This document shows positions 12,479 to 29,140 of a stretch of 64,000 bases of DNA, piece after piece; the stretch's first letter is position 1, and the number at the start of each line of letters is the position of its first letter. The position numbers were made by a program, and so were the translations under genes. The stretch comes from Antedon mediterranea (Eukaryota > Echinodermata > Crinoidea > Comatulida > Antedonidae): contig NC_092670.1 of NCBI RefSeq assembly GCF_964355755.1, forward strand, positions 16,243,201 to 16,307,200. The letters are read 5' to 3'. The notes beneath the pieces were generated by a model, which saw nothing but the letters and a program-made list of their open reading frames with translations, was not told where the DNA came from and did no database searches.

Positions 12479-15400
12479 CTAAGTTTCACTTCGAATGGCA
12501 TCAGATGTGGCTTTTTGTATAACTAAAATTATATGATTACAAAATTCTCTAGCAGCGCCTCGTCCGCCGTCCAAGTTTGATACAAACGAGGCCATGACTT
12601 TAAGATTGTGTTGCGCATCTTTAGGCGCTCCACCAATACCCGCTATTTTCACGCATTCTTGATCCGGTAAATCACAACCTGTAAAAATAAAGGTAATTAA
12701 AGTATTTTACTGTGGGCGTATGGGTGCGCGCGCGCGCAACTATGTAATGGCACTAGTTACTGTATATTTTTTACACATGATTAATTGATAATGATTTTGT
12801 AATTTATGACCGTATAAAATACGGTGTTTACGTGTTCTGTACTGCTAAACTGGTGGACGGTGTATGTTATGTAGGCTTACTCTAATAAATAAAGTATATG
12901 AATTTAAAGTGCCTTCATTAGTTTGTATATATCGAGCTGATGAATTTGAGAGTTGGATGTCAATACTTATTTTACAATCAACTAAAAAACTAAACTAAAA
13001 CTAAATCAGCATTGTGTTTCCTTACCCATATACGCAATTTGTGTCATATCCAGCTCCATTTTGTTTCTCCATTTCACTAACTGGGCTAATTTATTTTCGC
13101 ATCCCATTACTAATTCCACACCTAGTTTGTCAGCAAACTTCTGATGAAGTTCATTTTCTTCAGCTGAATAAAAAGTATAATAACGTTATCTTAGAGCTAG
13201 TACCGTCTTTCTTGAAATCAATGATAGGCCTAAAGCTCTGTCTACACTATCAAATTAGTTTGACAAAAAAAAATGTGGTGTGCCCAAATACGGTAGTGAT
13301 ATGCCCAAATATGGTAGTGATATGACATCATCATGTCCATAGAGTTAGATCATGTTTATGAGCACATCACGTAAGGTTTGATACGGTAGATGTACATTTC
13401 TACTCTAAAGAAAAGCTTCATAAGCTCACTCTAGTTGTAGAACCCTGTGTTCAAGAGACACCTCTATTCATTATCGAAGAGAAAACACTACACTTCATTA
13501 TATTTAAAGCTCTGTTTACACTATCGAACTGTAAGCGACAACAATTTTGAGGTGCCCATATATGGACATGATAATGTCATATCACTACCATATTTGGGCA
13601 TATCACCATATTTGGGCCCATCACACTTGTTTTTAGTTTCATAATGTAGACAGAGGTTTAGAGGACACTTTCTGTGAATGGCAAAGAACTACGGTCAGCA
13701 GGCGCCTATTCAGACGACATTCACTATATAGTGCCTTCAGAAGGTGTCAATTCAATGGGATTCTTCTATACTGTATATAATACTTCAATATTCAAACTTA
13801 CAAGCAATCAGTTTGACTGTAAGTCCTCTGTCCAACAGCATTCGGATACCCATTGCGTCCGTTTGGTTGTAGGTTGTAAAATGTCCATTTTCTAAAGATT
13901 CAAGGCTTTTATTAGTTTAATTCTGGTTGTACTATCCGAAATAAAGGAAAAGAATGAATGAAATTCATTATTTTGGTTTTACGCCTACTAACTTTTTTGT
14001 GTATAGAGATCAATGTGAATTGTTATTATCATCGGGTCTAGCATGTGGAATGTATGTTATTGTTTGTATTGTAAACTCCGGAATAAATTGAATAGGGAAG
14101 AATGGATTACAATCAATTGTAATTTCATTCGTAATTCACCTTCAGTAAAATATACAAGGTTATCCGTCAATACACCGTCTACACCAAATACAGCCAGCTT
14201 TACCCCTTGCGGCTTACTCTTTCCAAAGTAACCAAACTTTACCACACGCTGTTCCGCGATTGGCCAGTCTATGTCTGTGTCGATATCAACACTATACTCT
14301 GAACCCATCTCCAAATAGCCTACCCTTTAACGAATAGCAATACACATAAGTATAATGTTAATATAACGTAACATTAATAACATGTTAACAACTAAGGGAA
14401 TAATTATAAACAATATCAATGAAACTACTAAACAGTAGAGCACATATTAAGGGCCACATTCGGGACCCTTAAACATTATATTATATATTTCCTCTAGTTT
14501 TGTTTTATGTCTCCTAACAAATTCGAAATTACGACTAAATATCGAGACATATCCATATAACATAATAATAACAATATTATAATATGGCTAGATTAGAGAC
14601 TTGAGGCAAGTCTACTGAATGTTTTATCAAAAGTGAATATAATAAGCATGTATTGTATAGTAAGCAATCAAAGCTCATATGATTAACAAGAGACTGTCGA
14701 CTAATGATAGGCGAAAGGTATACTGGTAGTGATTTTAATTACATGTTTGTATGAAGTCTTTTATATGAATTTTTGAATGATTTTATTCGCCTGACTGGTT
14801 GTGGGATAGTTGATTACAGATTGCAGGTTTGTTTGGATACACAATATTGTGATTACAATAACTGTATTCATATTTTCAATAATAGGCTTACTTACTTTCC
14901 CCCTTGGAATACACCATTCATGAGTAGATTTCTGCGACTAAAATAAAATGAGCCGTTTTCGACAAGTTCACCATCCCAGTCTTGTCGCCGAGGCCGGTGT
15001 TTAGAATCAAGGTTTAACGGTTTTGTATTCTCTCCTATCGGATATTAAACCAAAAATAAATCGGAAATTAAACCAGAAATAATCGGAAATTAAAATTAAA
15101 CAACATAGCCTTTTTTTAACTACTAGTAGACATACTGAAAATGTAACTACACATGTTTATTGTTATTTGATAATTGAAAAAAAAACTAGGTGAAACTCCT
15201 ACTTTTTTTTAAAGATGTGTGTCCATTAAACAAGAAGGGGATTAAACTGTATGCTTTGAACCTAGAATTGGTAAGCACCAAACTACAGTGCCACTAATTG
15301 ATTGAATCGAGTCAACCAAGGAGGGCCAATTTTATACCTCTATTGTCAAACCAAGGAAATATATAACAACAGGACACTAAGCTCGCCGTACCAAGATAGG

Positions 15401-28800: not shown

Positions 28801-29140
28801 GGTGTTCTGCGATACTGTGAATGTAGGCCAAAACACCACCACTACTCCAACCTCGGAAAACCTCAGATAGCATATTAGTTTCATGTCTATGTTAAAATAT
28901 TAAAAAAAAAAAGTGCTATTGTACTTACTTTACTTGTTCATATTTATAGGAAGCGATACTCCTGATTTAGAATGTGTGAAGCGGTATGGAATAGGGGGCG
29001 CTCCAAAGGACGCTCAACACGATGTTATAACATGTTCTGGTTTTGTATCAAAGCTGGACGGTGGCAGGGGAGCTGCACGAGATTTTTGTAACCATGTTTT
29101 AATGGTCATGCAAAAAGCAGAGTCGGTAAACTCGCAGTAA
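19864..29140 (+). CDS. CMAS: N-acylneuraminate cytidylyltransferase (CMP-sialic acid synthetase), copy B, complete, 8 exons
   Basis: Same enzyme as copy A. Exons are 19864-20026, 24757-24909, 25308-25460, 25576-25714, 26255-26439, 26536-26625, 26978-27115 and 28950-29140 (TAA). Total 1212 nt, 403 residues, all GT/AG. Exons 2-7 are 153, 153, 139, 185, 90 and 138 nt, identical to copy A, with identical phases. Motifs are [13 protein letters not shown] (from residue 21), [32 protein letters not shown] (170-179) and [12 protein letters not shown]. In the HAD-like domain [10 protein letters not shown] (249-258) the nucleophile position is Ser250 and the second acidic residue is Glu252. The start MDIDAGGEK is preferred, but an in-frame ATG at 19774 would add 30 Arg-rich residues. 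AATAAA at 29187-29192 is a likely poly(A) signal. Intron 1 (4.7 kb) and intron 7 (1.8 kb) are swollen by mobile elements. Confidence 0.93.
20085..22163. mobile_element. ~2.1-kb terminal-inverted-repeat element with GCGGCCGC-containing ends, in CMAS-B intron 1
   Basis: The left arm (about 20085-20190) and right arm (about 22068-22163) are inverted copies. They share GGTCGAAGCGGCCGCCAACC, AAAGCGGCCGC, TTTGTATGGAACGCC and GATTGTCGTT. The interior contains a ~70-bp satellite array and AT-rich DNA but no transposase. The left arm begins about 60 bp after the CMAS-B exon 1 donor. No clear target duplication was found. Confidence 0.75.
20504..21375. repeat. Tandem array of a ~70-bp unit
   Basis: About a dozen copies of a unit containing TACAGTATTGCATTAATAA, TTTACGTACGGTATTGCCGA and TTTATATCTCATTTACATCG. 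Variants replace GCATTAATAA with GCAATAATAA. The array lies inside the inverted-repeat element 20085-22163. Frames across it (YRVFIQYC peptides) are artefacts. Confidence 0.92.
22315..24181. mobile_element. ~1.87-kb TIR element with tandem GTCGCCCCATCGCAAA repeats in both ends
   Basis: The left end starts GGGATCCAGTCAAGTCGCCC and the right end, reversed, starts GGGATGCTAGTCAAGTCGCC. Each is followed by roughly six to nine tandem GTCGCCCC(A)-CGCAAA units (22329-22480 and 24064-24165). The flanks carry the same heptamer TAGCTAC (22308-22314 and 24182-24188), a plausible 7-8 bp target duplication. Inner inverted similarity continues with TTTGATATCGATTGCG and the CGCGAC motifs near 23740-23790. 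No transposase frame was seen, so it is non-autonomous. It lies in CMAS-B intron 1. Confidence 0.75.
25775..25960 (+). repeat. Dispersed repeat shared by both CMAS genes, copy in CMAS-B intron 4
   Basis: Same sequence family as 15388-15592: GTCTTATGTCTGGCTGC, GTGTCGCAGCCACAGATAAA, GATCTCCGGAGCTCA. It lies on the same (+) DNA strand although the two host genes are opposite. The open frame running through it is not coding. Confidence 0.65.
26062..26220. mobile_element. Palindromic TA-type MITE, family A, copy 5
   Basis: Left TAAAGCTCTGTCTACACTAT, right ATTGTGTAGACAGAGCTTTA. CMAS-B intron 4; it ends 35 bp before exon 26255-26439. Confidence 0.85.
26658..26817. mobile_element. Palindromic TA-type MITE, family A, copy 6
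   Basis: Left TTAAGCTCTGTCTACACTAT, right AAGTTTGATAGTGTACAGTA followed by GACAGTGCTTTA. It lies in CMAS-B intron 6, 32 bp after the donor. Confidence 0.85.
27181..28091. mobile_element. Penelope-like retroelement remnants arranged as a ~265-bp inverted repeat, CMAS-B intron 7
   Basis: Arms 27181-27444 and 27826-28091 are inverted copies of the same element 3' end. They share for example AAGATGGCGAAAGCTAAAGA, CACAAGTGATCCGGTCCACT and GTGACGTCATACTTTTTCG in one orientation or the other. The 380-bp spacer continues the minus-strand copy only. Each arm therefore ends outward at the same terminus, so two 5'-truncated copies lie head to head. PLE insertions are known to be 5'-truncated and often in partial tandem or inverted arrangement. 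Confidence 0.85.
27260..27892 (-). pseudogene. Penelope-like element GIY-YIG endonuclease domain, fragment
   Basis: A 210-residue open frame whose first ~24 residues read through the opposite arm; the rest is the C-terminal part of a PLE polyprotein. Visible are VYDIPC (69-74), the CKSC pair (74-77), YIGETG (81-86), VRLKEH (91-96), [11 protein letters not shown] (124-134) and [11 protein letters not shown] (149-159) with Glu157. These match the GIY-YIG nuclease layout of Penelope elements, in which GIY is relaxed. The reverse transcriptase domain is absent, so it is a dead fragment. The right arm encodes the last ~65 residues again on the plus strand (about 27826-28010). Confidence 0.85.

Follow-up and report, generated by a model that had tools for sequence, protein, structure and literature searches.

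CMP-sialic acid synthetase (CMAS) converts CTP and sialic acid into CMP-sialic acid and pyrophosphate, and echinoderms are a phylum with a great diversity of sialic acids. In mouse CMAS, the C-domain has no phosphatase activity and serves as an oligomerisation surface (PMC8636478). This domain is stated to occur in vertebrates and some bacteria only (PMC8636478, PMC13214540). The Drosophila enzyme (CSAS) resides in the Golgi, is N-glycosylated and has been described as a homologue of the mammalian N-domain (PMC12144448). In zebrafish, one CMAS paralog is nuclear and prefers Neu5Ac and the other is cytosolic and prefers KDN (Schaper et al., 2012, cited in PMC9630641), which agrees with the preliminary description of the DNA studied here, where zebrafish was named as a known case of two paralogs with different localisation. 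No CMAS duplicate described from an echinoderm was found in a literature search of open-licence papers.

The locus analysed here lies in a stretch of 64 000 nucleotides (the window) from the feather star Antedon mediterranea. The window contains no N and sits 16.2 Mb into contig 1, which is chromosome-sized, of a 354-Mb, 18-contig assembly. It carries two complete eight-exon CMAS genes in head-to-head orientation, CMAS-A (405 amino acids) and CMAS-B (403 amino acids), whose coordinates are given in Table 1. Both proteins share with vertebrate CMAS (mouse 1qwj/3ewi) the two-domain layout and the catalytic motifs, whereas the crinoid has two linked copies. As in zebrafish, two CMAS genes are retained in one animal, presumably after an independent duplication; the split of localisation and substrate is demonstrated for zebrafish and would be a possibility for the crinoid, where the head-to-head linkage is observed. 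The catalytic domain is homologous to that of Drosophila CSAS, but the crinoid proteins have a C-domain and no apparent N-terminal targeting segment. Their C-domain is homologous to the bacterial KdsC/KDN-9-phosphate phosphatases (3mn1; TIGR01670, NF058599); it differs from them in lacking the nucleophile Asp and in being fused behind a cytidylyltransferase domain.

Table 1. Exons of the two CMAS genes and the interval between them (positions in the window).
Feature	Position	Strand	Remarks
CMAS-A exon 1	18932..19091	-	160 nt; start codon 19091; ATG, donor gtgtgt, CTP_transf_3 match
CMAS-A exon 2	17009..17161	-	153 nt; AG/GT junctions, homology to B and mouse
CMAS-A exon 3	15600..15752	-	153 nt
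CMAS-A exon 4	14896..15034	-	139 nt; carries catalytic motif
CMAS-A exon 5	14140..14324	-	185 nt; SVDIDTDID motif and C-domain start (GVDGVLTD)
CMAS-A exon 6	13802..13891	-	90 nt; C-domain
CMAS-A exon 7	13026..13163	-	138 nt; C-domain
CMAS-A exon 8	12479..12678	-	200 nt including stop; C-domain end
Interval between start codons	19092..19863		772 bp; both promoters and 5' UTRs; AT-rich middle
CMAS-B exon 1	19864..20026	+	163 nt; start codon 19864; CTP_transf_3 match
CMAS-B exon 2	24757..24909	+	153 nt
CMAS-B exon 3	25308..25460	+	153 nt
CMAS-B exon 4	25576..25714	+	139 nt; carries catalytic motif
CMAS-B exon 5	26255..26439	+	185 nt; SVDIDTDID motif and C-domain start (SIEGVLTD)
CMAS-B exon 6	26536..26625	+	90 nt; C-domain
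CMAS-B exon 7	26978..27115	+	138 nt; C-domain
CMAS-B exon 8	28950..29140	+	191 nt including stop; C-domain end

Gene models were rebuilt one exon at a time. Minus-strand frames were compared with the plus strand of the window by tblastn, which gave eight homologous A/B exon pairs, and all of them could be closed in frame with GT..AG. Exons 2 to 7 have the same length in the two genes; exon 1 differs by 3 nt and exon 8 by 9 nt. The intron phases after exons 1 to 7 (1, 1, 1, 2, 1, 1, 1) are common to both genes, and each coding sequence has a single terminal stop and no internal stop. Intron sizes are unrelated (for example, 1770 vs 4730, 1256 vs 398 and 565 vs 115 nt for A vs B). The preliminary description had announced two intact CMAS genes facing away from each other, and the rebuilt models reproduced its coordinates and lengths. 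It had also proposed an inverted duplication that took place after the intron pattern was fixed. The duplication was indeed at the DNA level and carried introns, but the identical exon lengths do not date it because the intron pattern may be common to vertebrates or older. A two-residue insertion in mouse CMAS sits exactly at the exon 3/4 junction, which is consistent with an intron pattern older than the duplication.

The N-domain matched Pfam CTP_transf_3 at 2.4e-33 (A) and 2.3e-38 (B) and the mouse CMAS N-domain 1qwj at 5e-97 (A) and 2e-101 (B). The two proteins matched mouse CMAS with 328-343 bits and the PseF and KdsB models were far under their cut-offs; judged by these matches, CMAS-A and CMAS-B are closer to animal CMAS than to the KdsB and PseF cytidylyltransferases. 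Upon alignment with mouse 1qwj and bacterial NeuA, the catalytic motifs, SVDIDTDID included, were intact in both copies, which differ in QCTSP (A) vs QCTAP (B) and HRPRR (A) vs NRPRR (B). N-domain identity was 68.8% between A and B, 64.4% between A and mouse and 66.2% between B and mouse. The corresponding mouse cluster is KRPRR, which we take to overlap the nuclear localisation signal. Its first lysine is replaced by H in A and by N in B and RPRR is kept in both; nuclear targeting by this signal is thus uncertain for the two copies alike. A review on CMAS speaks of basic cluster 2 (PMC13214540). No distinctive N-terminal targeting sequence was apparent by eye in either protein.

Both proteins have a full KdsC/HAD-type C-domain (match to mouse 3ewi at 2e-26 for A and 1e-28 for B). 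It is 57% identical between A and B, merely 33% identical to mouse 3ewi and 37-39% identical to the bacterial KdsC-type phosphatase 3mn1; the matches to TIGR01670 and NF058599 (NCBIfam) were under cut-off. At the nucleophile motif, A has GVD and B has SIE in place of NID in mouse and DVD in the bacterial relative, so the DxD motif of an active KdsC-type phosphatase is found in neither copy, and the HAD nucleophile is lost in the crinoid proteins as in mouse. The motif therefore differs by lineage and by copy. In A and B alike, the C-domain is probably a structural pseudophosphatase. Its presence in both crinoid genes conflicts with the statement that only vertebrates and some bacteria have it (PMC8636478, PMC13214540), and the two-domain enzyme is therefore probably older than vertebrates. 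This apparent novelty may reflect poor sampling more than a real surprise.

The age of the duplication was estimated from four-taxon trees. With both domains joined, A grouped with B, apart from mouse and bacteria (AU p=0.985), and both alternatives were rejected (AU p 0.010 and 0.026). This grouping against mouse CMAS indicates that the duplication came after the separation from vertebrates, with marginal results in single-domain trees (AU p of the alternatives: N-domain, 0.059 and 0.042; C-domain, 0.063 and 0.053). Branch lengths were 0.25 for the internal branch and 0.31 and 0.25 for the tips, which would place the duplication roughly midway between the vertebrate split and today; this is a crude estimate, as the internal branch includes part of the path to the attachment of the bacterial outgroup. 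Gene conversion could bias the age by making A and B seem younger. Part of CMAS-B exon 1 was also compared by megablast with a phage collection and gave no match.

The A and B proteins are identical at 257 of 402 positions (64%). At four-fold degenerate third positions (108 sites with the same amino acid), 27.8% agree, vs 27.5% expected from base composition: synonymous sites between the two genes are saturated. The dN value between A and B was 0.28 (NG86). In a neutral simulation, stop-free copies were already down to about 1% at K=0.2, and there were none in 300 at K of 0.5 or more. Since frames fill with stops under neutrality and dN is only 0.28, both copies have long been under purifying selection. 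A relative-rate test with mouse CMAS as the outgroup gave 31 unique changes in A and 27 in B (chi2 0.28); neither copy is decaying or evolving faster. The earlier argument that uninterrupted frames speak for retention is thus upheld by the simulation, the dN value and the symmetric rates.

We consider it highly probable that an inverted DNA-level duplication of CMAS took place after the echinoderm and vertebrate lineages split and that both copies were kept as working synthetases. In this reading, a single ancestral CMAS gave rise to the head-to-head pair, and each copy would have been kept since then as a working CMP-sialic acid synthetase, an activity predicted from the sequence. In each protein, the N-domain would do the chemistry, and the C-domain without phosphatase nucleophile would probably support oligomerisation or stability, as it does in vertebrates. 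Retention may be explained by the demand of a large sialyltransferase repertoire for CMP-sialic acid, the supply of which would be raised or divided. The pair is an ordinary duplication of two-domain enzymes, well preserved and in an interesting pathway context. With this old duplication retained in an echinoderm, zebrafish is joined by a second natural example for studying why an animal keeps two CMAS genes.

The pathway context was examined by genome searches. Matches to Pfam CTP_transf_3, protein A and protein B were exons of these two genes only; no further CMAS locus was found with these three queries, and gaps or withheld stretches could hide some. NeuB/NANS and Epimerase_2/GNE matches each fell in one locus of the genome. 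GT29 sialyltransferase matches numbered at least 150, and about 70 among the matches listed cover the L-sialylmotif, many of them clustered; these are exon matches, a few with stops, and not a gene count. Examples of matched regions are C7:20766351-20892042, C9:6932631-7034159, C5:11686496-11830241 and C1:25415842-25535686. Set against the 20 human GT29 genes (PMC5811610), the repertoire appears largely expanded in the feather star, and the sialylation capacity of the genome is apparently very large. Neither this repertoire, which lies outside the window, nor the C-domain with its differing active-site losses figured in the preliminary description. Gangliosides are known from feather stars according to titles cited in PMC4393008. 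With one NANS and one GNE locus but about 70 GT29 L-motif exons, retention of the CMAS pair for supply or for division of labour is plausible.

A refinement of retention as two working synthetases is that the work is divided, one copy preferring KDN or Neu5Gc or acting in another compartment, as the zebrafish paralogs do. The long retention under symmetric purifying selection, the precedent in zebrafish (PMC9630641) and the QCTSP/QCTAP and HRPRR/NRPRR differences are in its favour. However, A and B share their catalytic motifs apart from these differences, neither protein has a distinctive N-terminal targeting sequence by eye, and the replacement of the KRPRR lysine in both gives no clear separation of the copies. 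We hold this division to be possible, with odds that fall short of even. In a wider version, which is doubtful, the linked synthetases would be split by substrate or compartment and jointly supply a crinoid set of sialyltransferases that exceeds the human one several-fold; crinoids would then be a second, independent case of functional splitting of CMAS, outside fish.

The interval between the two start codons has a GC content of 34%, higher beside each start and down to 23-29% in the middle. Two 400-bp test pieces from its two halves showed no residual inverted homology outside the 28 bp by which they overlap. The GC profile and the lack of inverted homology are as compatible with two separate promoters as with a single one, and co-regulation of A and B from the interval would be no more than a possibility. 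It was considered whether the head-to-head layout itself has been selected, a shared bidirectional promoter co-expressing the copies, perhaps as mixed tetramers. The start codons are only 772 bp apart and mouse CMAS oligomerises through its C-domain (PMC8636478), but the halves of the interval share no homology apart from the test-piece overlap, GC rises separately near each start, and the layout could be a plain relic of the inverted duplication. Selection on the layout is unlikely.

A reading of one copy as a pseudoenzyme, whether decaying or regulatory, is very unlikely. In B, the HAD motif (SIE) retains neither Asp and QCTAP stands where A has QCTSP, but the relative-rate test is symmetric, the catalytic motifs are all present, and with 66% vs 64% identity in the catalytic domain B is even slightly nearer to mouse than A. 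An assembly artefact, duplicated haplotype or retrocopy found no support and has a negligible probability: haplotype duplication is excluded by the 64% amino acid identity with saturated synonymous sites, retroposition by the introns in both copies, whose sizes are unrelated, and the absence of N from the window adds to the identity and synonymous-site values in showing that the inverted arrangement is no misassembly, a point raised in the preliminary description.

Several repeats were recorded in and around the genes. In CMAS-B intron 7 (27180-28090), two 265-nt arms that are 98% complementary form an inverted repeat, which spans an open frame of 217 amino acids matching GIY-YIG endonucleases (E 3e-5); the element is perhaps a fragment of a Penelope-like retroelement. 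A dispersed short repeat with TAAAGCTCTGTCTACACTATCAAA and ATATGGACATGAT..GTCATATCACTACC was found at 13231-13606, 26062-26192, 26657-26770 and 35533-35813, i.e. within introns of CMAS-A and CMAS-B as well as elsewhere, and is probably a small mobile element. Minisatellite arrays are located at 20514-21362, 22326-22482, 24064-24169, 29850-30227 and 31364-33751. They include an array of 70 bp x 12 in CMAS-B intron 1 and a downstream one of 60 bp x 40, which is open in one frame for 541 amino acids. The CpG observed/expected ratio was 0.98, with a GC content of 35%, values that agree with an invertebrate genome.

Three neighbouring genes were detected, none of them belonging to the sialic acid pathway: a metallo-beta-lactamase exon (1362-1586, plus strand), which we take to be ELAC2-like; a CS-domain gene (6977-8348, minus strand), presumably NUDCD3-like; and a single-exon rhodopsin-family receptor (41867-42910, minus strand; Pfam 7tm_1, 5e-47). 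NG-peptide codon patterns of other echinoderm classes gave no match in the genome, and no such peptide turned up near its only neurophysin exon. Published PCR primers for neuropeptide precursors of Antedon mediterranea (PMC9793003), searched in the genome, place it with a feather star (Crinoidea) of the genus Antedon or a very close relative; by chance, about 0.0006 exact 20-mer matches would be expected in 354 Mb. The calcitonin forward primer matched with one mismatch, and the adjoining 3 kb contained no match to its reverse partner. The orexin-precursor forward primer had an exact, single match at C2:26272052-26272071; the reverse primer lies about 440 bp from it in convergent orientation, with one mismatch, and the locus contains a cysteine-rich frame resembling that of a secreted peptide.
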